In this document: positions 1 through 21,466 of the stretch, in pieces
Position numbering within the stretch: the first letter of the stretch is position 1
How the letters are laid out: the number at the start of each line of letters is the position of its first letter
From: a virus
IMG/VR virus record: IMGVR_UViG_3300030406_000846
Location: 1-23,473 of that record
Length of the DNA stretch: 23,473 nucleotides
Direction: 5' to 3' (one strand)
Notes under the pieces: generated by a model
Databases searched by the model: none
What the model was told of the DNA's origin: nothing
Seen by the model: only the letters and a program-made list of their open reading frames with translations
Translations under genes and position numbers: made by a program

Positions 1-228
1 AAGCTGATCTCCTACAGAAGCATAGACTGTAGATCCATTAGTGGTACGATCTGACTTGTATTTGATTGCTAATGCAGCATCGTCTAAAGCTTTCCTGGCT
101 GCTGCCACCTTCGCATCGTCTAATGTGACTTTATTACCGTCAGCATCAAACGCTCCAGCAGAATCGTCAATCGTTACGACAGGTTTTGCTTCAGATTTGT
201 ATGCTTCGTAAATCGCTTCGTGATCCAT
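1..228 (-). CDS. Partial fibre-associated tail assembly chaperone-like protein (3' end outside window)
   Basis: Open from an ATG at 228 to base 1 with no stop, so 76 N-terminal residues are visible and the C-terminus is missing. The start has a GGAG Shine-Dalgarno sequence at 236-239, seven bases upstream. The protein starts MDHEAIYEAYKSEAK and ends, at the window edge, with TVYASVGDQL. In between is an Asp/Ala-rich, probably helical stretch (LDDAKVAAARKALDDAALA). The YxSxGDQL ending is the beginning of the signature that in small fibre-associated tail assembly chaperones continues as QLDxLYxD. The 108-residue protein at 3721-4047 shows a related motif. It is the last gene visible in the fibre block, a usual place for such factors. 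The role is inferred from position and this partial motif. Confidence 0.6.
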   Translation of the reverse strand, partial: MDHEAIYEAYKSEAKPVVTIDDSAGAFDADGNKVTLDDAKVAAARKALDDAALAIKYKSDRTTNGSTVYASVGDQL

Positions 229-264
229 AAAAAAACTCCGTTTTACAATAATTTTAACTTAACA

Positions 265-882
265 TCAAGTGTTTGGCTCAAACTCCAAAACTTGAATACT
301 TGAACAAGGTCTTGCAATATAATTAGCATCAGTTGCATCAACGGTTCTATTTAAATAAACTGTATTGGTAGTATTATTTGAGTGACTTAATCTTACAGAA
401 TATGTTGTAGCATTTGTACTTGCTGCTTGAATTATTGTTTGAAAACTTTGATTAAAAGCATGTGAATTAGATGCTAATGCTTGTGTAGTTACTCTGCTCA
501 AATTACTTGCAGCATCACCTATAGCAGTCGAGACTGAACCTCCTATATAAAGAAGTGCTTTTATAGTCATAAAGCCAGAGTAATCACACCCACAATTTAT
601 GCTATAAGAAATTAATAATTTATTGTTGGTACTACTTGCAGTATGTGAAACTGAAATAGCATCACCACTTACACCAGCTTGGCCTAAACTTGCACTAAAC
701 GTATCCGTTTTTAAAGTATGAGAATAATTTACTAATTTACCTACACTTGAATTTGACGTAAGAATTGTTCCATCTGCTACATCAGGCAAAGTAAAAACTC
801 TATCATTACCAGAAGAAGAGGGTGCTTGTAAGCTAACTGACCCACCACCTGATGCTGCATTAAGCTTAATCTTTCCTGTCAT
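265..882 (-). CDS. Small tail fibre / jelly-roll-like structural protein (paralogue 1)
   Basis: A 205-residue protein. Its N-terminal module (IKL...GG..V....APSS...R.FTLP..ADG.ILT, about residues 5-43) is shared with the protein at 3080-3718. The junction KTDTFS near residue 58 begins a C-terminal beta-rich module containing SGDAISVSHTASSTNNKLLI, again shared with 3080-3718 and less closely with 879-1418. The protein ends with the relic of a shared pattern (VYLNR...SSIQVLEFE). Such proteins recur in fibre regions of marine phages and are probably trimeric, bead-like fibre heads; that fold is inferred. The start overlaps the previous stop as ATGA, preceded by GGAGG. A gap of 36 bases with nothing recognisable separates it from the next gene. 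No enzyme motif is visible. Confidence 0.75.
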   Translation of the reverse strand: MTGKIKLNAASGGGSVSLQAPSSSGNDRVFTLPDVADGTILTSNSSVGKLVNYSHTLKTDTFSASLGQAGVSGDAISVSHTASSTNNKLLISYSINCGCDYSGFMTIKALLYIGGSVSTAIGDAASNLSRVTTQALASNSHAFNQSFQTIIQAASTNATTYSVRLSHSNNTTNTVYLNRTVDATDANYIARPCSSIQVLEFEPNT

Positions 883-894
883 GCTGCTACCTCC
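879..894 (-). repeat. Repeated 16-base ribosome-binding/start junction, copy 1
   Basis: The minus strand reads GGAGGTAGCAGCATGA. It encodes the last residues (EVAA, stop) of the upstream fibre protein and supplies the GGAGG Shine-Dalgarno plus ATG of the downstream one. An identical copy lies at 3080-3095, at the junction of two other fibre genes; flanking bases differ. Confidence 0.8.
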
Positions 895-1418
895 ATTATT
901 GTAAATATTGAGGTTGATCTCGCGTCATCACCACCCTCTCTTCTGTTTATATATAAAGTAGAAGTTTGTGCATTACCATATAGTTTATATGTATGTGAAT
1001 TTGTATCACTAACTTGGTGCAAATATGAATGTGTTACATGATTTATTTGATCTCCTACAATTGCACTTGTACTTGCTTTGTTATAAGTAGCAAACCAAGC
1101 ATTTATAGATGATCCCCCAGTTCCATTAGCACCAGTTATTTCAGAAGAACCATCATATAATTTTCCATAAAAAATAGCATTTATTTCAGTACTCCATGCA
1201 ACATCTACTTGTATTAATAATTTATTTGTTGAAGCAGTAGGTGTTATGGTTGCATTTAATCCTGTAATTTCAGAAAAAGTATTATATGTATTAGCACTAA
1301 AAGTGTCTTTTTTAACTGTTTGAACAACTTGAATAATAGACCCACTAGACATTGCTGAATCTGGTAAGGCTGCTAGTCCTGTTACTGCTCCTGTTTGTCC
1401 GTTGATTGATACTGGCAT
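879..1418 (-). CDS. Small tail fibre / jelly-roll-like structural protein (paralogue 2)
   Basis: A 179-residue protein. The short N-terminal module MPVSINGQTGAVTGLAALPD differs from those of its paralogues, but from about residue 27 it rejoins them with SGSIIQVVQTVKKDTFS, almost the same as GNIIQVVQTVKTDTFS in 3080-3718. The rest is a beta-rich domain with ITPTASTNKLLIQVDV and an ending LYINRREGGDDARSTSIFTIMEVAA-like, close to the ending of 3080-3718. It overlaps its upstream neighbour as TAATG and its downstream neighbour as ATGA, which favours translational coupling. I infer a trimeric fibre-tip or bead domain. Function is judged from position and repeated modules, not from a catalytic motif. 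Confidence 0.75.
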   Translation of the reverse strand: MPVSINGQTGAVTGLAALPDSAMSSGSIIQVVQTVKKDTFSANTYNTFSEITGLNATITPTASTNKLLIQVDVAWSTEINAIFYGKLYDGSSEITGANGTGGSSINAWFATYNKASTSAIVGDQINHVTHSYLHQVSDTNSHTYKLYGNAQTSTLYINRREGGDDARSTSIFTIMEVAA

Positions 1419-1720
1419 TAGACCACCGTAAATGTTGAACCAGAAGGTATAGTCAAAGTATAAGTCGCCATTGAAAATTCGCCCGCCACCATTCCATTTT
1501 TACCAGTTCCAACTGTAATATTTCCAGTAGCAGTCGTAGGGTTTTGAAATATATCATCAGTAACTCCACTTGCAGGGATTGATATTGCATTAGTGGAAGC
1601 AGCAGTTATTCTGCCCTGTGCATCAACTGTGATAGCTGGTATTGCAGAAGCAGAACCATAACTCCCTGCTGAAACAGCAGTATTTGCAAGTCCACCTGAT
1701 TGTGTTTTGGTTAATCCCAT
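1418..1720 (-). CDS. Short tail fibre protein with fibre-shaft repeat motif
   Basis: A 100-residue protein. Residues about 18-42 carry the fibre motif GSYGSASAIPAITVDAQGRI, widespread in phage side-tail fibres where it forms a short beta repeat. The C-terminus TLTIPSGSTFTVV resembles that of the 689-residue fibre (VTVTIPSGSRYVVL), which suggests a common trimerising or end-capping beta motif. Start and stop both overlap neighbours as TAATG. The upstream GAGG, eight bases before the ATG, lies inside the C-terminal codons of the 58-residue gene. The protein is short for a fibre and may attach to, or cap, a neighbouring one. Confidence 0.75.
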   Translation of the reverse strand: MGLTKTQSGGLANTAVSAGSYGSASAIPAITVDAQGRITAASTNAISIPASGVTDDIFQNPTTATGNITVGTGKNGMVAGEFSMATYTLTIPSGSTFTVV

Positions 1721-1896
1721 TAGTCAGCCTCGTTAATAGTAATTGTACCAGCAGAAACTTGAGCCATTATTTCTGCATAATCTTTATTGCCTTCCGATAT
1801 TGGAACTGAACACTTAATACCATCAATAGTTGCAGATATAGCACTATTTTCTGTGTCGCCTTCAAATTTAATGTATTTTGCGTTAGTGATAATCAT
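1720..1896 (-). CDS. Small conserved fibre-region protein (58 residues)
   Basis: This fills the gap between two fibre genes. It reads from ATG at 1896 to TAA at 1720, starting MIITNAKYIKFEGD and ending SAGTITINEAD. The start overlaps the preceding stop as ATGA and the stop overlaps the next start as TAATG, the same junction style as neighbouring genes, which strongly supports it as real. The pattern NAKYI...IDG....VP...GN..YAEIM.QV.AGT.TI..AD is one I associate with small proteins in marine phage fibre clusters. Its function is not known to me; a fibre-assembly or attachment role is a guess from context. Confidence 0.75.
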   Translation of the reverse strand: MIITNAKYIKFEGDTENSAISATIDGIKCSVPISEGNKDYAEIMAQVSAGTITINEAD

Positions 1897-3083
1897 AGTT
1901 CTGCGTCTGCTGTGTATTGAAATGTAAAAGCTGGATGGGTTGTATCAGTTGCCATATAACCGATCATTCTTTGGCAACCCGAACTAGGTTGTGTATTAAG
2001 TCCAACCAAAGTATCTGAATTGTATTTGCTTACATTACCAGCAGTGTTTGCAACTCCATCCCTAGCAGGATAAAAAACTATTGTAGGTTGATCTCTCATA
2101 AGAACTGGAAAGTTACCTTCATAAAATGCTCTGTCTTGATCTCCGTCAAGACATTTTGCTGGAACTGCACCATATTGACAATATGTAGCAACCCCTGGGA
2201 ACCATTCCTGTGGTTGACCAATATCACCGCTTTTATGGAAATACCTTTGACACCTTCTTAATTCATCTGAAAAAGTTAAAAATTCAAATGAGGTGGCATA
2301 ATCCGAAACCTCTAATTGAACTCCTGTCAGTTCAAATGTTGCATTATTGGTTGTGTACCATGTTGAAGTAAAGTCAGGCATTCTCTCAGCACTATCATAT
2401 ACTGCCCATTGATTTAAAGTCGCATTGCTTCCTGTATTACTTGTTCCCGCAAATTGAAACCATGATATTCTTAAACCTTCTCCAGTATCATTATCAAACT
2501 GTAAATTACTATTTCCTTGAATTGTTTTTGTAATTTTAGTCCAAGTATTAGCAGTTAAAGAACCTGTTTCAAAAGGATAATTGTATGCAGTTCCATCGCT
2601 AGTTTTTATATGACCAAAAAAGTTTTGGGCAACACTTGATTTCACCCAAAAAGATAATGTAATAAAACTAGATGATGAAGTATAATTCCAACCGCTATTT
2701 GCAATATCTTGAGCTTCTATACGATGGATTATATTAACTCTATCAACAACACCAGCACCACTTGTTTGGTTTCCGTTAGTAACTTTAAATGCTTTTCTAA
2801 ATCCTAATGTGTAAGGTGTAGTACCACTCGCTACATCAACTTGTGATTGTGTTGGGTTTTCATCAGGTTGATTTAAGCCAACAGAAAATCTATCAATAGT
2901 TTGATGACCAGAGGAAGTAGATGACGTTCCCCTTTGGGCTATTCTCATATCTCCATTAATCGTGAGTCGTCTATTACTTAGGTTATTAGTAATGTTGGCA
3001 GTACACGTTCCATCGTTAGCTAACGTGATCGCATCGCTTGATGCACTAATTCCCTGTAACGCTCCAACTTTTAAGGTACTCAT
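1893..3083 (-). CDS. Tail fibre / putative receptor-binding protein
   Basis: A 396-residue protein. It opens with a short head (MSTLKVGALQGISASSDAIT, then ITLANDGT) typical of marine phage fibre heads. Residues about 37-52 carry the motif RRLTINGDMRIAQRGTS, recurrent in tail fibre proteins of cyanophages and other marine phages. The middle (about 100-260) is beta-rich with aromatic residues (FITLSFWVKSS, WTKITKTI, FELTGVQLEV), like a carbohydrate-binding jelly roll. The C-terminal third contains LRRCQRYFHKS, another frequent element of these fibres. No polysaccharide-degrading catalytic motif is evident. The start uses the repeated GGAGG junction at 3080-3095. It is a good candidate receptor-binding fibre; the ligand cannot be read from sequence. 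Confidence 0.8.
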   Translation of the reverse strand: MSTLKVGALQGISASSDAITLANDGTCTANITNNLSNRRLTINGDMRIAQRGTSSTSSGHQTIDRFSVGLNQPDENPTQSQVDVASGTTPYTLGFRKAFKVTNGNQTSGAGVVDRVNIIHRIEAQDIANSGWNYTSSSSFITLSFWVKSSVAQNFFGHIKTSDGTAYNYPFETGSLTANTWTKITKTIQGNSNLQFDNDTGEGLRISWFQFAGTSNTGSNATLNQWAVYDSAERMPDFTSTWYTTNNATFELTGVQLEVSDYATSFEFLTFSDELRRCQRYFHKSGDIGQPQEWFPGVATYCQYGAVPAKCLDGDQDRAFYEGNFPVLMRDQPTIVFYPARDGVANTAGNVSKYNSDTLVGLNTQPSSGCQRMIGYMATDTTHPAFTFQYTADAEL

Positions 3084-3095
3084 GCTGCTACCTCC
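3080..3095 (-). repeat. Repeated 16-base ribosome-binding/start junction, copy 2
   Basis: The minus strand reads GGAGGTAGCAGCATGA, identical to the copy at 879-894. It forms the last codons of one fibre gene (EVAA, stop) and the Shine-Dalgarno plus start of the next, with an ATGA overlap. Confidence 0.8.
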
Positions 3096-3718
3096 TCTAA
3101 AGTTATTATTGATGTGCTTCTAAAATGATGAACTACGTTAGCATCACCAGCACCTCTATTCAGATATAGAGTTCTACTAGCAGTACTATCTAAATTTACA
3201 AGTCTGTAAGAGTAAGTAACGCTACTTGTACTTGATGGAAAATGTAAAAATTCGTGACCTATCATCAATTGATGTGCAGTAGCAGAACTGCTATTTAATT
3301 GACCTCCTGTAGCAACTCTTGATCTACTGGCAGAAGCGTCACCTGTAGAGCCAGTAATTTCAGTTCCATCAGCATATATAACAATACCTATTCTATTATT
3401 ATTTGAACAAGAAACTGACAAAACTCCTCTTATTAAAACTTTGTTAGAAGTACTTGAAGGTGTTATAGAAGCTGAGATTGCATCACCTGATACACCTCCA
3501 CTTGTATTACCTGTTGCTGAAGCAGCAAATGAAAAAGTATCAGTTTTAACTGTTTGTACAACTTGAATAATATTACCTGTTTTTGGATTGGTCGTAGTGA
3601 GCATTTCCCCATCAGCATTGCCAGGTAAAGTTATGGTTCGATTTGCAGCAGGGTTAGAACTAGGCGCTGATATTATCACCCCATTACCACCGCTATGTAC
3701 TAATTTTATCTGGCTCAT
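3080..3718 (-). CDS. Small tail fibre / jelly-roll-like structural protein (paralogue 3)
   Basis: A 212-residue protein built from modules seen elsewhere in the window. Residues 1-42 (MSQIKLVHSGGNGVIISAPS, then RTITLPGNADGEMLT) match the head of 265-882. GNIIQVVQTVKTDTFS matches 879-1418. The beta-rich domain contains SGDAISASITPSSTSNKVLI. The end, RTLYLNRG...RSTSIITLEEVAA, matches 879-1418. It is therefore the most complete of the three related proteins. A trimeric jelly-roll bead or fibre tip is inferred from the alternation of short hydrophobic strands and the lack of catalytic motifs. It sits between the 108-residue chaperone-like gene and the 396-residue fibre, with a 2-base gap upstream. 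Confidence 0.75.
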   Translation of the reverse strand: MSQIKLVHSGGNGVIISAPSSNPAANRTITLPGNADGEMLTTTNPKTGNIIQVVQTVKTDTFSFAASATGNTSGGVSGDAISASITPSSTSNKVLIRGVLSVSCSNNNRIGIVIYADGTEITGSTGDASASRSRVATGGQLNSSSATAHQLMIGHEFLHFPSSTSSVTYSYRLVNLDSTASRTLYLNRGAGDANVVHHFRSTSIITLEEVAA

Positions 3719-3720
3719 AA

Positions 3721-4047
3721 TTAGCTAGGCTTTGGGTAATCTGATTTAATTTTAGCAATACCATCTTTCCATGTCGTTGTTCCATTAACACTATCCCAAT
3801 ATTGTTGATCCAGTTGTGTTTGCCAATCAGGATATTCTGCTGTTCTTTTTTGTTTATATTCATTAGCATTTTTCCATGCTGTAAAAGCTGCATTTAATTC
3901 ATCATCCGTAGGTTGTGAATCTTTATTAGCAGAATCCCATTCAATTATTTTATGAGGAACTACATTTTGATCTAATCTATAACGATTGGCATTTTTACCA
4001 AGTTGCAATAAAGCTAAATTTATGTCTGTATCTGAATTTATTGCCAT
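3721..4047 (-). CDS. Probable fibre-associated tail assembly chaperone
   Basis: A 108-residue protein with no hydrophobic or export segment. The C-terminal half has KRTAEYPDWQTQLDQQYWDS, then NGTTTWKDGIAKIKSDYPKPS. The combination AxYP....QLDxxYWD..NGTTTW...I..IKxxYPKP is that of the phage tail assembly chaperone-like family found next to tail fibre genes in many phages. The N-terminal half (NRYRLDQNVVPHKIIEWDSANKDSQPTDDEL) looks like the usual variable leader. The Shine-Dalgarno AAGGAGG lies in the end of the upstream gene (4050-4634), ten bases before the ATG. A role in folding or attaching the fibres encoded around it is inferred. Confidence 0.65.
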   Translation of the reverse strand: MAINSDTDINLALLQLGKNANRYRLDQNVVPHKIIEWDSANKDSQPTDDELNAAFTAWKNANEYKQKRTAEYPDWQTQLDQQYWDSVNGTTTWKDGIAKIKSDYPKPS

Positions 4048-4049
4048 GA

Positions 4050-4634
4050 TTATGCCTCCTTAAATATTTTTACAAGAGTATAGATTTCAGTACCAAAATC
4101 AGATGCATTTCCTAATCCAAGACTAGACTCAGTTGTAGAACATTGATGTTGAATTTCATAAATATTGTTTGCAGATATTGTTATACGAGCCGCACCATCT
4201 GAATCATTTTGGTCGCCATCAGCACCAGTATCGCTAGTTGTGCTTTTTCCATATTGAACTACAGCAGAGCCTGTAATGTCATATAAACGTGACTGATGTC
4301 TCCCACACCTCATTGCTGGACATGACCATTCAATTAAATAAGAACCAGCAGCTAATGTAAATTGATTACTTGAAATAGAAACTATACTATCTGTATCTGT
4401 TATCTCAGTATTTAAATCTCTTGTTCTCCAATCTCCGCTAGTAAATGTACCACCGTCTGTAGTGCTTGATTTTTGATCACAAATAATTGCATAACTTGTA
4501 AAAGTTTTAGATCCTATCTTAGGTGCTGTAACAGAATCAGCAGCAAGCATATCGGTATCAACAATACCGTCTGGTAGTCCTCCTACTGCTACCCCACTTA
4601 TAACATTTGTTGTTCCATTAAATACTAAAGCCAT
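4050..4634 (-). CDS. Tail fibre protein with C1q/TNF-like jelly-roll-like domain
   Basis: A 194-residue protein. The N-terminal 45 residues (MALVFNGTTNVISGVAVGGL, then IVDTDMLAADSVTAPKIGS) form the shaft-like leader common in phage fibres, where D.DMLA.DSVT.PKI repeats. Residues about 45-194 form a beta-rich domain with FTLAAGSYLIEWSCPAMRCG, then HQSRLYDITGSAVV and TISANNIYEIQHQC; strand order and the closing YTLVKIFKEA resemble C1q/TNF-type jelly rolls found at fibre tips. Three cysteine-containing strands are visible. It is probably an accessory receptor-binding tip. A TAGGAGG at the end of the upstream 689-residue fibre serves as both stop and ribosome-binding site. Confidence 0.7.
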   Translation of the reverse strand: MALVFNGTTNVISGVAVGGLPDGIVDTDMLAADSVTAPKIGSKTFTSYAIICDQKSSTTDGGTFTSGDWRTRDLNTEITDTDSIVSISSNQFTLAAGSYLIEWSCPAMRCGRHQSRLYDITGSAVVQYGKSTTSDTGADGDQNDSDGAARITISANNIYEIQHQCSTTESSLGLGNASDFGTEIYTLVKIFKEA

Positions 4635-4644
4635 AATTTACCTC

Positions 4645-6714
4645 CTATAACACAACATAACGTGAACCTGATGGAATGGTAACTGTTACTCCATTAGCTA
4701 CTGTAATAATTCCAACACTAAATCCTGATTTGTTTGTAGTCATTGTGTAATTATTTGAAATTGTTAGCGAGTTTTCTGTAACGCAACCATCCGCTTTCTG
4801 TGATGAAACTCCTGTCAAGGCAGATCCATCAATAGCTGGTAACGCTCCAGTAAGTGCAGAAGAGGGTAAGTTGGTTAAACTTGCACCCGATCCACTAAAT
4901 ATAGTCGCAGCAAGTAATCCTGTAGCAGCATTAAAGGTAAGATTTGATCCTGATTTAAGTGCCAAGTCTCCTGTTGCAGCAGTAGCGAACAAGGGAAAAC
5001 AGGTGGTGTCAGAACTTTCATCAGCAATCGTTGATGTACTTGCATTTCCAACCGCTATCTGAGTTCCCATATTGACAATGAAATATGTAGAACCGCTAGG
5101 AGGAGCAGAATCAAAGATAATATCTGTACCACTTACAACATATCCATCTGTCATATCTCCCTGTCCAGTTCCATCATTAGGTTGTTGCATGACACCATTG
5201 ATTGAGACTCGTAAGATCTCTGCATTTACAGGTGTTACTGCTGTACTTGTACCCTTCGTGACAAGCTTGAATCTATAAGCAGTACCATTAAAGGTTGCAG
5301 ATCCTCCACCAGTTCCAGAAGATGATGCAATATCTAATAAATCAGCACTTCCTGTACCGCCAGTAGAACCTCCGATTTCTCCCCATGAACTACCATCATA
5401 TCCTTCAAATTCTGATGTTTGACTATTAAATCTGAACATACCAGCAGAGGGAGAACCAGGTCTTTGGGCAGTCGTACCAGCAGCAATATCAATAGCTCCT
5501 GTACCTGTCATCAAAATATTGTCACTAACAGTAAATGTGCCAGTAACGTCCATATTCCCGCTAACACTCAAGCTAGATAAGAGAGTTCCTGTAGCTGTTG
5601 CAGAGTTTGTTGCTACACTATTACCCATCAACGAATGAGATGAACATTGGTAATGAATTACCATTGGAGTCGTATCACCTACAACAATCTGTGTATATGC
5701 ACCACTAGAGCCAGCAGTTCCGTTTGTTGTTACGTTTGTTGTATATGCTGTAGTTTTATTTGCGTCAAGATAAAAACGAAGAGGATGACCATTATTACTA
5801 TTATCTGATTGGTCAAATTTATATGTTCTACCTGGTGTAAGAGTTAAGAATGGTGCTTCCTTACCATCAATCTTATACCCATTACTTGACCCACTTCCGT
5901 TATATCTATGGGCTGCTGTTTTACTTGCAACTGTAACGGTAAAAGTTTTTATCGATCCAGTATATGTAGCATGAGTAGAAGCAAAACCTCTAATATTACC
6001 GTCATCAGTAAGAGTTAAAGTTCCTGTAAAATTAGGATCTGCATTTTGACCTGGAGCGACCCAAGATAAAACTCCACTTGCATTACTGGACAACACATAT
6101 CCACTTACACTCGCATCTGTAGCTGGTAATGTCCAAATTAAATTAGATGCAACTGTAGCTGGAGATTTAAAACCTACATAATGAGAAGAGTCATTATCTA
6201 AATATCTAAATTCTTTCTGACCAGAAACAGAAATATGCTCACTACTTGTCCAAGAATCTGTTGCATTTAACCAGTTAAAAGTTTTATCGCTTGCACCTTT
6301 TAGAGTTAAACCTCCTTCATTAGCAGTTGTATCAGAAGGAGTACTGACTTTTCCAAGCGTAATATTTTTATCTTCAACATCAAGGTTAGTAGTGTTTATA
6401 GTTGTAGTTGTTCCATTAACAGTAAGATCACCAGGAATGTTTACAAGGCCAGTAGCACTTATAGTCATTCGACCTACCCCTGCTGTACTGAAAGTCAAAG
6501 TATCAGAACCACCACTTATTCCAGAATTATTATCAGAATTAAAACTAAATGATGGAGCAGCAGCCGATCCATCAGGTGCTTTACTTAGTAAATTTGAATA
6601 TGCAATCTTTTTGTTTTTATCAGCACCAGTAGCACTTTGATCTATTATTGGTAGCGTATCTGTAGCTGCTGGAGCAGTTAAGGCGGTAAATTCTGATATT
6701 TTGCGATTTGTCAT
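4645..6714 (-). CDS. Large modular tail fibre with embedded cupredoxin-like domain
   Basis: A 689-residue protein. Residues 1-44 (RKISEFTALTAPAATDTLPI) are a short fibre-head motif. Residues 94-121 (GDLTVNGTTTTINTTNLDVE) are a marine-phage fibre motif common in cyanophages. Residues about 250-370 form a cupredoxin-like module with possible copper ligands H310, C357, H360 and M363 (see separate entry). Residues 413-448 (GTTAQRPG..., EFEGYDGSSWGEI) repeat a module also present in the collar fibre next door. Residues 455-552 form another recurrent fibre domain (LRVSINGVMQQPN, DIIFDSAPPSGSTYF). The C-terminus VTVTIPSGSRYVVL resembles that of 1418-1720. It follows the collar fibre with a 2-base gap. 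A structural fibre role is well supported; the purpose of the copper-like module is unknown. Confidence 0.85.
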   Translation of the reverse strand: MTNRKISEFTALTAPAATDTLPIIDQSATGADKNKKIAYSNLLSKAPDGSAAAPSFSFNSDNNSGISGGSDTLTFSTAGVGRMTISATGLVNIPGDLTVNGTTTTINTTNLDVEDKNITLGKVSTPSDTTANEGGLTLKGASDKTFNWLNATDSWTSSEHISVSGQKEFRYLDNDSSHYVGFKSPATVASNLIWTLPATDASVSGYVLSSNASGVLSWVAPGQNADPNFTGTLTLTDDGNIRGFASTHATYTGSIKTFTVTVASKTAAHRYNGSGSSNGYKIDGKEAPFLTLTPGRTYKFDQSDNSNNGHPLRFYLDANKTTAYTTNVTTNGTAGSSGAYTQIVVGDTTPMVIHYQCSSHSLMGNSVATNSATATGTLLSSLSVSGNMDVTGTFTVSDNILMTGTGAIDIAAGTTAQRPGSPSAGMFRFNSQTSEFEGYDGSSWGEIGGSTGGTGSADLLDIASSSGTGGGSATFNGTAYRFKLVTKGTSTAVTPVNAEILRVSINGVMQQPNDGTGQGDMTDGYVVSGTDIIFDSAPPSGSTYFIVNMGTQIAVGNASTSTIADESSDTTCFPLFATAATGDLALKSGSNLTFNAATGLLAATIFSGSGASLTNLPSSALTGALPAIDGSALTGVSSQKADGCVTENSLTISNNYTMTTNKSGFSVGIITVANGVTVTIPSGSRYVVL
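5605..5967 (-). other. Cupredoxin-like module within the 689-residue tail fibre
   Basis: This segment encodes about residues 250-370. It shows YKIDGKEAPFLTLTPGRTYK, then FDQSDNSNNGHPLRFY with H310, and after about 45 residues IHYQCSSHSLMGN with C357, H360 and M363. An upstream His and a late Cys-x2-His-x2-Met cluster on a beta-rich, roughly 110-residue unit is the arrangement of type 1 copper proteins; the short C-x2-H-x2-M spacing resembles that of some archaeal and microbial plastocyanin-like proteins. The ligands are seen in sequence; metal binding is inferred. Confidence 0.65.
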
Positions 6715-6716
6715 AA

Positions 6717-7643
6717 TTAAAATTTAATAACGTACATTAGAGCAATATTCTTAACTCTAACTTCAGCACCACCGTCAGAAGCAACACTAACAGATATTCC
6801 TGTATTTGCATCATTCATACTGGTACTGCTTGACCCTCCAGAAGTACTACCTGTAACATTACTACCTCCATCATCCTGTGTTCCATGTCCTTTAGTAACG
6901 TGTTTGTGACCTGGATCAGTAACAGATGCAGTATGAGCGTGAGTTTTGTTTTGATCTGCCTGACTAGAAGCAAAAGATCTTCCGTCATCTCCAGTATTTG
7001 AAGCATTATTAGCCCAACCTCTTACAAATTGTCCACGCAAATCAGGAAGATTAAATGTTGATGAGCCATCACCAGAACCAAAAGTTGTGCTGATTGTTGC
7101 AAACAAAGTAGCGTATGTGGAACGACTTATAGCAGCACCATTACATTCTAAATATCCAGAGGGTACGGTGGTAGATGCAAATGAGAAGATTGAACCCGCA
7201 GGTACTCCATTAGCAATTTCACCCCAAGCTGCTCCGTTATAACCTTCAAATTGTGAAAGAGTTGTGTTAAATCTTATATCACCTGTTGCTGCTGTTGGTC
7301 TTTGTGCTGTTGTTCCAGTAGGCAACTGCAAAGATCCAGTTCCAGACATTACAATATCACCCGCAGAAGTTATAGTTCCTGTAAAACTAGGTGAGGCAGT
7401 TGTGGCATGACCCATATTTGCTACATCTGTTTTGCCAAGTAATAAATAAGTTGGAGTACTAGCATTAGTACAAATATTTAAAGTATTATTTGATGTATTT
7501 ACAAATAATTTTCCTACGACATTACTTGAAGGAACAGATGTTCCGCTATTTGTTGACTGTATATCGCCTAAAACATTGTTTAAATCTGCTCTAAATGAAG
7601 CTCCAACTTGATCTGCAATATTATAATCATGCGTATTACTCAT
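6717..7643 (-). CDS. Tail-collar-domain fibre protein
   Basis: A 308-residue protein. Residues 1-40 (MSNTHDYNIADQVGASFRAD) are a head motif frequent in marine phage fibres. Residues 110-144 repeat the GTTAQRP...QFEGYNGAAWGEI module shared with the 689-residue fibre. Residues about 147-211 (VPAGSIFSFASTTVPSGYLE, then LPDLRGQFVRGW) are a phage tail collar domain as in T4 gp12. The C-terminal region has HAH at 235-237 and HKH at 246-248, plus H253, followed by Gly/Ser-rich sequence and the closing IALMYVIKF typical of collar-type fibres. HxH motifs in such tips are known to hold iron in trimeric needles. The Shine-Dalgarno AAGGAGGT is within the last codons of J. Confidence 0.85.
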   Translation of the reverse strand: MSNTHDYNIADQVGASFRADLNNVLGDIQSTNSGTSVPSSNVVGKLFVNTSNNTLNICTNASTPTYLLLGKTDVANMGHATTASPSFTGTITSAGDIVMSGTGSLQLPTGTTAQRPTAATGDIRFNTTLSQFEGYNGAAWGEIANGVPAGSIFSFASTTVPSGYLECNGAAISRSTYATLFATISTTFGSGDGSSTFNLPDLRGQFVRGWANNASNTGDDGRSFASSQADQNKTHAHTASVTDPGHKHVTKGHGTQDDGGSNVTGSTSGGSSSTSMNDANTGISVSVASDGGAEVRVKNIALMYVIKF

Positions 7644-18718: not shown

Positions 18719-21466
18719 TTATGTGCCGAAGCAGAATGCAGTTGGTTGCTTGATAGCAAAGTCAACATCTTGTAATGCAACAATCTTGACAGTACCAGAA
18801 CCAGCCTTAGTGATTGTATCTACTGTAAGATCTAAACCACTCCACATACCAATACAGAACTGGCTGAAGTCACCAAATAGTGCATCGTTGTTAACAAGTT
18901 GGTTAGAAACAATAACTGGGTAGCCATTGATTTCATTGTTCTCAAAAACAAACTTACCTGTGTTTGAAGCAACTTCTGTACTCTTTAATGCACCTCTTGC
19001 AGAAGCATTAATGATGTAGAACATATTTGCTACATCTGCGTTTGCAGCAGCTACATCAGTTTCCATTCCGATGTACTCAGCGAATGTACCGAATGTAGTA
19101 ATTGTTTGTGTGCCAACACCAGTTGTATCTTTAATACCTAATGGTTGGTTTGAAGAACCTGTACCGTAGATAGCTGCGTTATCTAATTTTGTAGCAATAA
19201 CTCGTGCAATATCGTCCCGGATCATTGATTCAACGTCTATAGATGACTGCAATAACAAGCGTCTTGTGAATTCAACCACTCCACCGACCGTTTTTGGTGT
19301 CATGTTCACTTGGTCGAAGGCCTGCTGACTCTCGGTAGGCTCAGATCCTTCTCCAACGAAAAACCCTGTTGCTGTCTGAGTCATTCTAGGGATTGCAATG
19401 TTACCAGAAAGTCCTGTGAGCATTGTTGGATTTGCTGCCATAACAGCCATTCTTTTACGAAGAATATCTATAAAAGAACCAGAAAGTAATTCTGTTGGAA
19501 CTAAGTTACCACCCGCTGTTGCAGTACCAACATTCAAGTCTCTTTGTAAAACTTCGTTAGGAACTAAAATTCCATTTGCAGGTTTGTCATAACGCTTAGA
19601 TGCTTCGTCTGAAACTTCTCTTTCAAATGCAGCAGCCTCTTGTGCTGATCTGTCATTTGGGTTTGCTAAAGCATTTAATGCTCTTAAGAAGGAAAACTTC
19701 TTAACTTCTTTTGGTTCTAAACCAACTTCATTAGTTGTCATGTCTGTTGAACGAATTGGGGTATTGTTTGCCTCTGCCTTGTTTTTAACAAGATCGAGGA
19801 TTGCTGCTCTTGATTCAACAATAGATTTGTTGCTTTTTATAAGAGTCTCAGCTATCTCTTCTGCTCCATACTCTCCGAACTCACGACATAATGAAGTGAT
19901 AGATGCTGTACGAGCATTGTTTTCATCAATAGCACGTTGTACTTCGGCTTTGATGTCGATTTCAACGGATTTCTCCGTATCAACCGCAGTTTCTTTAGTT
20001 GATTCTTCCATGTTACGAACTTTGGGTGATGCGGAATCCTCCGCAGAGATAATCTCCTCGACTGGAGATTTACTTTCTATATTAATACTATTACCTTGAG
20101 AGGGGTCAATTAAACTTCTTCCGAAACCAATTGTAGGATCTGCTGGAACAGTAACAACTGATAATTCATGTACCGACCAAGAACGAGCTAGCATTCCATC
20201 TTCTGTCTCATCAATGTCATTAATAGAATAACCAAAAGATACACCTCTGATTACTCCATCTTCTACATCTTGTAAAACCTCAGTAGCTAATTTGTTTCTT
20301 GAGAAACGAATTTTTGCATAACCACGTTTGTCTTCTCCAATATATGCAGATTCAACTACACCTATTGGTTTATCCATATTGTGATTAAACAAAACCGCAC
20401 CGCCATCATTAAGTCTTGATAGATCAGCAGCACCACGTTCATGGCTTAAAATTTCTTTTCCAAAATAACGATTTACTGGATATTCTGACGAAAAAGGAAA
20501 CTCGAATGTTCTTGACTTAACATTTTTAAAATCAGTAACTTCTTTTCTTTGCAATTTATCATCAGCATCAATGCTTCTAATAGCTGCAATCTTAGTTAAA
20601 GCACTAAATCTATGACCAGCGAAGATATCAGTCTCCTCACCATTTCTGTAGACCTGTATTAGGGCAGCAGGGTCATCAGCAGTACCATTTATTACAAAAG
20701 AACTACTTGGGACATCAATTTGACCATCCCTAACAATTCTTGTAATTTTACCTCTAGCAGTACCACCACTAGCATTCCAGCGAACAAAATCGCCAGTCTT
20801 TAAAGCATCTGGTGCTGCTCTGTTGTCTTCAATAGTTTTTTGAGCCATAGTTTTTTCGTTAGTAGCTGGTTCAAATTTAATGGGATCAAATTCATTTCTC
20901 TCAAGCCAGGATCTAGCTTCAGAGACAGAATAATCGGATAATCTGAACCTTATTGATTGAAGTTCAGCACCCTCCTCATTATCCTTTATACCAAATATAA
21001 AGTCTATGCCTTGTGAGGCTTCATTATTAGACCGTCTAAATGTATCATATTGTTCTGGATTTGTAATAGTCGCTGCGTGTTCATTTGGATATGGTCTTGC
21101 AAGTTCTATTGGTTCTGCTCTTTCTCTAGCTTTTTTTATAGCGGCTGCTTTCCCTCTACTCCAACTAAAGCCTGCATCACCTCCCCAAGCAGCCCAAGCT
21201 GTACGTCCAGGACTAGGATATCCTTTCTCCCCAGGTCTAAAACCTTCTGCTTTTTTATCAACTTCATGCCGACTAAAAAAACTAAACATTCTAACCACAA
21301 CGTCAGGTGATAATTCATTACCACTTAATATTTGTGTCGCTCTTACTGCTGCAACTTGTGTACCACCTTTCCTCCCTTCTTTTTTCCATTCTTTATATCG
21401 TCTAGCCTCTGCTTTCATCCCATCTGTGGGTTTGAGATTAATCTCAGTTCCGCTTACATTTGCCAT
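18719..21466 (-). CDS. Prohead protease - major capsid protein polyprotein with extra N-terminal domains
   Basis: A 915-residue protein with at least five parts. Residues 14-104: conserved phage domain with FSFFSRHEVDKKAEGF and GRTAWAAWGGDAGFSW. Residues 155-200: a short SIRFRLSDY...EARSWLERNEF module. Residues 222-293: Tudor/SH3-like segment (KTGDFVRWNASGGTARGKIT) resembling the hypervirulence-associated Tudor family. Residues 308-452: U35 prohead protease with H362 in LFNHNMDKPIG, S410 in GVSFGY and H433 in VHELSVVTVPADP. Residues 453-630: acidic, coiled scaffold-like linker. Residues 631-915: HK97-fold major capsid protein (AGGNLVPTEL, EFTRRLLLQSSIDVE, GTGSSNQPLGIKD). Self-cleavage is expected to free the capsid protein. 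It lies 2 bases after the portal. Confidence 0.93.
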   Translation of the reverse strand: MANVSGTEINLKPTDGMKAEARRYKEWKKEGRKGGTQVAAVRATQILSGNELSPDVVVRMFSFFSRHEVDKKAEGFRPGEKGYPSPGRTAWAAWGGDAGFSWSRGKAAAIKKARERAEPIELARPYPNEHAATITNPEQYDTFRRSNNEASQGIDFIFGIKDNEEGAELQSIRFRLSDYSVSEARSWLERNEFDPIKFEPATNEKTMAQKTIEDNRAAPDALKTGDFVRWNASGGTARGKITRIVRDGQIDVPSSSFVINGTADDPAALIQVYRNGEETDIFAGHRFSALTKIAAIRSIDADDKLQRKEVTDFKNVKSRTFEFPFSSEYPVNRYFGKEILSHERGAADLSRLNDGGAVLFNHNMDKPIGVVESAYIGEDKRGYAKIRFSRNKLATEVLQDVEDGVIRGVSFGYSINDIDETEDGMLARSWSVHELSVVTVPADPTIGFGRSLIDPSQGNSINIESKSPVEEIISAEDSASPKVRNMEESTKETAVDTEKSVEIDIKAEVQRAIDENNARTASITSLCREFGEYGAEEIAETLIKSNKSIVESRAAILDLVKNKAEANNTPIRSTDMTTNEVGLEPKEVKKFSFLRALNALANPNDRSAQEAAAFEREVSDEASKRYDKPANGILVPNEVLQRDLNVGTATAGGNLVPTELLSGSFIDILRKRMAVMAANPTMLTGLSGNIAIPRMTQTATGFFVGEGSEPTESQQAFDQVNMTPKTVGGVVEFTRRLLLQSSIDVESMIRDDIARVIATKLDNAAIYGTGSSNQPLGIKDTTGVGTQTITTFGTFAEYIGMETDVAAANADVANMFYIINASARGALKSTEVASNTGKFVFENNEINGYPVIVSNQLVNNDALFGDFSQFCIGMWSGLDLTVDTITKAGSGTVKIVALQDVDFAIKQPTAFCFGT

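Follow-up and report, generated by a model that had tools for sequence, protein, structure and literature searches.

Host-recognition regions of marine phages vary strongly, and the rules of this variation are largely unclear. How, then, does a marine phage come to carry a row of small fibre genes whose products share heads, hinges and tails in different pairings? The question is raised by a linear IMG/VR contig of 23,473 bases (record IMGVR_UViG_3300030406_000846, analysed over its whole length and called the window here), in which three genes between positions 265 and 3718, hereafter P1, P2 and P3, had been read in an initial annotation as fibre paralogues mixed by repeated recombination between tandem genes. 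We consider it probable (roughly three chances in four) that they belong to a modular host-recognition array, in which short N-terminal heads name the slot of each gene in the order A-B-C, doubled in this phage, and C-terminal tips are exchanged from hinge to stop codon across head classes and phage families. What can be read from the sequences is the order of the heads, the independence of heads and bodies, the borders of the cleanest exchanged pairs, exchange across families, a Shine-Dalgarno-like sequence embedded in the gene ends and a platform domain before A genes.

The window holds five recognisable array members, not three, as an A head and a C head are found on two further genes. In array order they are:

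4050-4634, minus strand: A gene of triplet 1 (A1), an A-class head (about 4563-4634) on a different body, phrog_24210.
3080-3718, minus strand: P3, 212 residues, B gene of triplet 1 (B1), a B-class head (about 3578-3718) and a TNF/C1q-like body (about 3083-3577), the latter from the predicted fold.
1893-3083, minus strand: C gene of triplet 1 (C1), a C-class head (about 2985-3083) on a different, larger body, phrog_4492.
879-1418, minus strand: P2, 179 residues, A gene of triplet 2 (A2), an A-class head (about 1344-1418) and a TNF/C1q-like body (about 882-1343), the latter from the predicted fold.
265-882, minus strand: P1, 205 residues, B gene of triplet 2 (B2), a B-class head (about 742-882) and a putative TNF/C1q-like body (about 268-741), assigned from the open reading frame (ORF), the head class and the body hidden Markov model.

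A sixth gene, C2, is expected beyond the end of the window, where the related contig L184 has it. The three proteins first noticed are indeed homologous beyond chance. P1 and P3 match at 38% over almost their entire length (BLASTP, E 2e-21, one alignment spanning head and body), P2 and P3 at 37% from the hinge onward (E 9e-19), and P1 and P2 at 25% (E 2e-6). The head supposed to be common to two of the three is that of P1 and P3 (identity 0.43), and P2 has another one (0.20 to P3, 0.16 to P1). The hinge ascribed to all three is near-identical in P2 and P3, where it forms a DNA repeat (D3) of 40 nt with 90% identity, but P1 has a diverged form only (LVNYSHTLKTDTFS). Along similar lines, P2 and P3 do share the ending EVAA, within a 3'-end repeat (D4) of 36 nt with 81% identity, but this type of ending is the default of the whole family and no sign of paired modules.

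Relatives were gathered as 116 loci found through P1-P3 (the first search giving the best 80 of 142) and 80 loci found through gpJ, the tail tip protein (the best 80 of 131). An iterated body profile yielded 315 ORFs, of which 224 were distinct and complete after repeated loci had been removed; only identical proteins were discarded, and near-duplicates remain among the 224. Nine loci that repeat other contigs were left out (L091, L095, L103, L104, L105, L114, L144, L146 and L147), and four more (L089, L094, L153 and L167) were also omitted from the slot comparison and from the counts of gap ORFs and platforms, the order test retaining them. Head classes were assigned by profile matches, for which the patterns M.[VI].[IF]NG... 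(A), KIKL/SQIKL..SGG... (B) and MS.L.V...ASSDAITL (C) are shorthand. Of the 67 B-head members listed for other contigs, 51 entered the B-head sequence set, together with two proteins of the window; the A-head set comprised 43 of 52 listed members plus P2 and one C-head member from contig L102. By these profiles the 224 members carry 53 A, 70 B and 19 C heads, 23 heads of a class D found in other phages, and 59 that fit none of these classes. The class D heads (MS[TQ]LKVN...) form arrays of their own in other marine phages, in the order D - unclassified - D (L012, L018, L019, L028, L051, L053 and L112 among them).

The cyclic order A-B-C-A was kept in 163 of 168 adjacent head pairs, from 66 contigs with at least two A/B/C heads (four near-duplicates included), against a mean of 73.7 and a maximum of 97 in 2000 within-contig shuffles. 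A second triplet follows the first in 24 contigs, or 20 without near-duplicates. Heads of the same slot in different contigs have identities of 0.74, 0.69 and 0.65 (A, B and C), vs. 0.56, 0.44 and 0.55 for the two slots of one contig. Because heads thus group by slot across phages, the doubling of the triplet looks old and the slots have not been homogenised.

The bodies follow a different history. The sequences strongly support a re-pairing of heads and bodies by recombination, with head class apparently random with respect to the body tree. The initial annotation had held that concordant module phylogenies would speak against recombination, and they are not concordant: the body tree (142 members) requires 57 changes of head class, the value expected from 300 label shuffles (57.6, range 51-64), and the head tree requires two. 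Mean body identity is 0.328 within a head class and 0.326 between classes (23,100 pairs), and the 107 pairs with heads at least 95% identical have a median body identity of 0.35. Seven A/B/C pairs have body identities of 0.8 or more, and the head class is the same in three of them. The window proteins are good examples. The head of P2 is found 100% identical in L094 and L098 over bodies of 0.33 and 0.32 identity, while its body occurs at 0.89 identity in L102 under a C head; the body of P1 is 0.73 identical in L009, the head of which resembles that of P3 (72.7% over 110 nt). For the P3 body the best partner reaches only 0.44. Heads of one class also carry bodies of different families.

Turnover of the bodies is also evident between close relatives. 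In slot pairs from phages with gpJ identity of at least 0.85, bodies were below 0.45 in 86 of 101 and at least 0.85 in ten (all ten with identical gpJ, 1.00); these pairs are not mutually independent, and L144, L146, L147 and loci with a gpJ of up to 950 residues (e.g., L184) were left out. The window and L121 have gpJ proteins 0.99 identical and bodies, in the three comparable slots, of 0.20, 0.22 and 0.35, even with heads at 1.00 in A1 (body 0.20) and C1 (body 0.35). L184 has a backbone 91% identical to the window in nucleotide sequence, and the blocks that align within the array are heads, gene ends and small genes, not bodies. One of them, window positions 1301-1731, is 96.8% identical.

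The limits of the exchanged unit in P2 and P3 coincide with the two repeats:

1299-1338, minus strand: hinge repeat of P2 (D3), left border of the body.
3533-3572, minus strand: hinge repeat of P3 (D3), 90% identical to 1299-1338.
879-914, minus strand: 3' end of P2 (D4), GGAGGTAGCAGCATGA, with the Shine-Dalgarno-like sequence within the EVAA codons and an ATGA overlap with P1.
3080-3115, minus strand: 3' end of P3 (D4), with the same embedded sequence as P2 and an ATGA overlap with the C gene.

Comparison of P1 with P3 alone gives no breakpoint, but the cleanest pairs of different viruses have sharp ones. Nine pairs were compared for their borders: L009/P1, in which the head class is the same, and eight in which one body sits under two different heads, an unclassified head being among them in three. 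In eight of the nine the similarity sets in no more than 7 nt from the hinge glycine, and four (L003/L006, L081/L083, L102/window and L138/L152) are continuous from a point 3-6 nt into the hinge up to the stop codon, ending at most 5 nt from its last base. For L038/L074 the identity begins at 5 nt and extends 16 nt beyond the stop codon, and in the remaining four pairs it is interrupted, stops early or continues into the next gene. A DNA-level recombination site at the hinge was considered and is not claimed, as the codon entropy there is near background.

Exchange is visible between viruses. Positions 881-1337 of the window, i.e., the body of P2, are 94.5% identical over 457 nt in L102, under an unrelated C head. 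The 4.7 kb that follow the array in L102 are 72.9% identical in nucleotide sequence to P-SSP7 over 89%, the terminase gene included, and on this sequence evidence L102 is a P-SSP7-like podovirus, unlike the phage of the window. One body is thus common to a lambda-like phage and a T7-like podovirus.

There are several other ways to account for these patterns. In the original proposal, the tandem fibre genes of a single genome would have recombined repeatedly, re-pairing heads, bodies and tails. The genes are tandem, the D3 and D4 repeats of P2 and P3 lie at both borders of the cassette and could be crossover sites, and within a contig the 3' tails show a small excess of similarity (0.736 vs. 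0.701, p = 1e-4), apart from which no clear trace of such exchange was seen within one genome. However, bodies of the same contig are no more similar (mean 0.312, maximum 0.45, n = 117) than those of different contigs (mean 0.322, n = 9,894), the hinges show no same-contig excess (p = 0.14), heads group by slot and not by genome, and the closest body partners of P1 and P2 are in other viruses, that of P2 in a P-SSP7-like podovirus. Recombination has re-paired heads and bodies, as the initial annotation supposed, but the tail is not a separate module, and the visible exchange probably runs between phages and not between the tandem genes of one, which makes exchange within the genome an improbable explanation. 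Slightly more improbable still is an assembly artefact, with different phages joined by the assemblers at conserved heads. The heads are short conserved stretches where assemblies can cross and the contigs are mostly metagenomic, but the head/body layout and the order platform-A-B are present in the cultured phages P-SSP7 and SS120-1, the hinge and stop borders recur in several separate contigs, and the genes after the array in L102 match P-SSP7.

It could also be that nothing has been exchanged, the heads being held by purifying selection and the bodies diverging fast under diversifying selection. A conserved N-terminus with a variable C-terminus is what this would produce, and median body identity is low throughout (0.32). 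As the sole cause it is refuted, unless the mixed contigs are chimeras, by single bodies found under unrelated heads with high nucleotide identity and sharp borders (the four unbroken pairs named above) and by the bodies of different families within one head class; we give it very little credence. The least probable of the alternatives is programmed diversity, through a diversity-generating retroelement or an invertible segment. The very rapid turnover of tips (gpJ 0.99 and body 0.20 between the same two phages) would agree with it, but bodies are replaced whole and not point-mutated. Reverse transcriptase, serine recombinase and tyrosine recombinase were each found in none of 12 related records, mostly fragments, and none of these enzymes was among the 20 window proteins scanned with Pfam. 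In positions 1-6800 of the window the single inverted-repeat pair (26 nt, 81%) lies away from the body borders, where no inverted repeats of at least 18 nt were found.

Returning to the modular array exchanged between phages, the gene ends deserve attention. Glutamate followed by V, I, L or M at the fourth- and third-from-last positions is found in 213 of 221 distinct members outside the window, and the exact ending EVAA in 52 of 224. The ending EPNT of P1 is also that of its relative in L009, and therefore this differing end goes with the P1 body. The tail as a third recombining module was accordingly rejected, the ending being a family default with a codon signature. The glutamate at position -4 is encoded by GAG in 186 of 209 cases, vs. 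57 of 384 for glutamates elsewhere in the bodies. For the count of nearby starts an ATG qualified if it lay no more than 3 nt upstream or 15 nt downstream of the stop codon's last base and opened 55 codons or more. Such a start follows 163 of 212 genes, at positions from 3 nt before to 12 nt after the stop, and 150 of these 163 contain a Shine-Dalgarno-like core motif within their last 20 nt (background 11%). The stretch ATGGAGGTAGCAGCATGA encodes MEVAA and has GGAGG within it, seven nucleotides before the next ATG. P1 lacks the motif, and the gene after it begins 36 nt past its stop codon with a GGAG of its own. The embedded sequence may then serve as ribosome site for the next gene.

What the array is anchored to is suggested by the gene before each A gene. 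A conserved C-terminal domain of ca. 50 residues, which we call the platform, is encoded directly before 73 of 74 A genes, but before only six of 93 B genes and none of 64 C genes. Three pre-A genes (two from the window and one from L102), all counted in the 73, seeded the profile, from which P-SSP7 gp17 was excluded; when seven proteins were searched with it, the end of gp17 was recovered (residues 663-715, E 1.8e-27). The two window carriers are:

4645-6714, minus strand: carrier fibre of 689 residues, the final ca. 55 (about 4648-4812) being the platform domain; a seed of the platform profile.
1418-1720, minus strand: short carrier of 100 residues with a C-terminal platform domain (about 1421-1585), immediately before the A gene of triplet 2; also a seed.

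Platform carriers range from 58 to 1,323 residues, some of them cut at the locus end. The carrier is gp17 in T7-like podoviruses, and lambda-like phages have the domain on a long fibre or on an adaptor of 100 residues. The gene after 139 platform genes is A in 74, D in 13 and B in six, the rest being partly locus ends or unclear. Matches to a 60-residue platform query came from 99 phage records, of which 77 bear the name Synechococcus, Prochlorococcus or cyanophage. In P-SSP7, gp17 is followed by an A gene, a B gene, a weak C-like gene, a small ORF and a C gene. The platform is likely the docking site of the A-headed protein, judging from this gene context.

For the bodies we rely on predicted structures. 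The AlphaFold2 models of P3 (pLDDT 85.1, pTM 0.78) and P2 (86.2, 0.80), the two predicted, are TNF/C1q-like jelly rolls of two sheets. Their nearest fold matches (Z for P3/P2) are the C-domain of Pgp3 (14.5/15.2) and two bacterial TNF-like lectins, PLTL (12.4/13.4) and BC2L-C (12.1/13.1), and the matches also include BclA and C1q heads, over a whole range of about 15 to 9, as well as the tip of Bdellovibrio Bd2734 (8.7 and 9.6). At the level of families, Pfam C1q (PF00386) gave no match for P1-P3 at E <= 1, and a B-slot protein of L121 reached E 0.0081 with 16.8 bits, below the cut-off of 23.7; for this reason a resemblance of fold is claimed, not membership of the C1q family. P2 (E 2.2e-11) and P3 (E 1.4e-16) match PHROG 6942, phage tail fibre proteins, and P1 does not. 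The models are consistent with bodies that act as tips touching the cell surface and may bind glycans.

Several observations weigh against parts of the modular reading. Most of the evidence for exchange comes from metagenomic contigs. Deep branches of the body tree are weak, at ca. 30% identity, and there is a residual linkage among A/B/C pairs with bodies at least 0.5 identical, where head class is shared in 33 of 57 pairs vs. 40% expected. Five of the nine border pairs are broken up, end before the stop codon or run past it, and codon entropy in the hinge is about background at most positions and lower at one isoleucine. The head regions of the two models are of low confidence (pLDDT about 53-65), and docking on the virion and receptor binding by the array proteins are what we infer from sequence. 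No head of a recognised class comes after 37 of the 139 platform genes. Among 15 annotated regions of named phages, chosen from the matches, 12 bear a platform and only two of these, P-SSP7 and SS120-1, have an A gene next (in the order platform-A-B), the others having B or C genes nearby or none recognised. As for the embedded sequence, the core motif is also present in 42 of 49 genes without a nearby start, not significantly different from the 150 of 163, GAG at -4 is about equally frequent without (43/49) and with (143/160) such a start, and a stricter motif, considering the ATGA overlap only, gives 68 of 114 with overlap and 62 of 100 without, no difference. We have retained the idea of an embedded Shine-Dalgarno sequence because of the codon choice and because P1 lacks the motif; the similar bias in genes without a nearby start could be a carry-over from body exchange.

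In the mechanism that we propose, each array gene would make a small fibre protein with a short N-terminal head and a C-terminal body, the head setting its place in the array and, we infer, on the virion, and the body being the tip that contacts the cell surface. The A-headed protein would dock on the platform that ends the product of the preceding gene. Bodies would pass between phages as hinge-to-stop cassettes, across head classes and families, and the Shine-Dalgarno-like sequence in the last codons would let any body plugged in drive translation of the next gene. The motor might be relaxed homologous recombination during co-infection. Rad52-like recombinases, Erf included, act on diverged sequences and short stretches of homology, according to PMC3945230, and genes for both an Erf-like annealing protein (PF04404, E 2.5e-12) and a RusA-like resolvase are present in G001, a related record of 41 kb. 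Erf is thus a plausible motor, though it was found in one of the 12 related records, mostly fragments; YqaJ was found in none of them. More tentatively, and with somewhat less than even odds, the heads might be an address code common to unrelated marine families, in which A docks on the platform, B and C join alongside or after it in order, a single exchange from hinge to stop can put any tip on any head, and the two families, whose hosts are presumably the same picocyanobacteria, share a pool of tips.

A conserved N-terminus with an exchangeable tip is a kind of system already known, and the comparisons that follow draw on the accessible portions of the cited papers. The branched TSP1-TSP4 complex of Ackermannviridae (PMC11414711) also has several receptor-binding proteins, N-termini that fix their place, variable C-terminal tips and recombination; however, at the N-termini of its tailspikes the modules are XD and TD domains of Gp10-like type, whereas the array of the window has heads of ca. 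25-47 residues (P1-P3), an A-B-C triplet that can double, TNF-like tips, an embedded Shine-Dalgarno-like sequence and a separate platform on the preceding gene. In ten array proteins no Pfam match to Gp10-like XD was found at E <= 1, no Gp10-like model having been searched separately. The metaviromic islands of marine phages (PMC3909814) are similar in their C1q-like recognition genes, their strong local variability and a listed XkdW gene, but they are variable regions defined by read recruitment, and the available text describes no head classes, gene order, re-pairing or platform. Pam3 gp24 (PMC9608196), a fibre from a cyanophage, likewise combines N-terminal docking with a TNF-like domain and has its own chaperone, but it is a single fibre with a helical docking domain and a glycine-rich tip, and no array of exchangeable genes is described in the portion available. 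The MAT fibres of Bdellovibrio (PMC10769870) have varied C-terminal tips, TNF-like ones included, and one member binds glycans, but they are long fibres of a bacterium and not a phage array with slot-specific heads. A survey of mosaicism in receptor-binding proteins (PMC10684548) reports ongoing shuffling of fragments, in general terms and, in the part available, with no ordered system of this type. In cyanopodoviruses, according to PMC4646655, the tail-fibre gene shows incongruence with the remaining core genes and may undergo exchange. Among cultured phages, a close likeness is found in PSSP7_036 to 041 of P-SSP7 (NC_006882.2), with a platform at the gp17 end, A/B/C heads, the same body family and a similar small ORF; it differs in that P-SSP7 is a T7-like podovirus and has a single set, the genes of which carry the annotation tail fibre or uncharacterised protein, without head classes.

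What appears to be new is the ordered head code, the platform, the embedded sequence resembling a ribosome site and the sharing between lambda-like and T7-like phages. We found no account of the A-B-C head code or of the platform domain in the literature searched, which covered few subscription papers, and one may be in print elsewhere. If the reading holds, the rule can be read from the sequence: heads name the slot, tips cross phage families, and the likely ribosome site of the next gene travels in the tip. It would offer a simple account of how these viruses may come to attach to other cells. Tips could be tracked in viromes as units common to several families of phages, a point relevant to how phages follow the variation of host surfaces in the ocean, and for the cultured P-SSP7 the model predicts which domain docks which and which part decides adsorption.

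Two small genes accompany the array in the window:

3721-4047, minus strand: small ORF of 108 residues between the A and B genes of triplet 1, a possible fibre-assembly chaperone.
1-228, minus strand: small ORF that follows P1 (B2) and is truncated at the window end, with relatives between B and C in other contigs.

The first matched nothing in Phage_tail_APC (PF16778) above the cut-off, nor did five other gap ORFs scanned, its best hit being XkdW at E 0.029, below the cut-off of that family. The ORFs between A1 and B1 of L121 (10270-10629, E 4e-12) and L184 (5880-6239, E 1.7e-12) do match Phage_tail_APC. The small A1-B1 ORF of the window differs from both despite the very similar backbone, as if it changed with the A1 body, and it may be a body-specific chaperone. 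The second lies in a stretch (1-257) that is 94.2% identical in nucleotide sequence in L184, and P-SSP7 has a similar ORF (PSSP7_040, compared by eye). The 689-residue carrier fibre (4645-6714) has an internal stretch that resembles a B head, SPAT...WTLPAT...GYVLSSNASGVLSW, again by eye only, an indication that a fibre shaft repeat was the origin of the B heads.

The window itself is a contig of a lambda-like marine phage. Its main genes are on the minus strand: a lambda-type portal, protease and capsid, head-tail attachment, tail tube, tape measure, tail L, JAB-NlpC and the gpJ-like tip protein, and then the collar fibre and the fibre array. From its tail genes the virion would have a long non-contractile tail. 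The host is likely a picocyanobacterium, to judge by relatives of the window proteins. The closest portals are those of Synechococcus phages S-CBS3 and S-LBS1 (47%), and the nearest isolate relatives of gpJ, among those that cover most of it, are Prochlorococcus phages MED4-117 and P-HS2/MED4-184 (36%); in GTDB genomes a single relative of gpJ was found, a match of 31% that is uninformative on the host. The prohead protease and the major capsid protein are one ORF of 915 residues (18719-21466), with a TUDOR-like segment (PF11160) before the protease domain. Finally, one of the loci, L205 (PQ492659.1, Limnohabitans phage DC33), is filed as Inoviridae despite a genome of 39 kb, and this label looks doubtful; its stretch holds a relative of the array bodies and a peptidase annotated lys.

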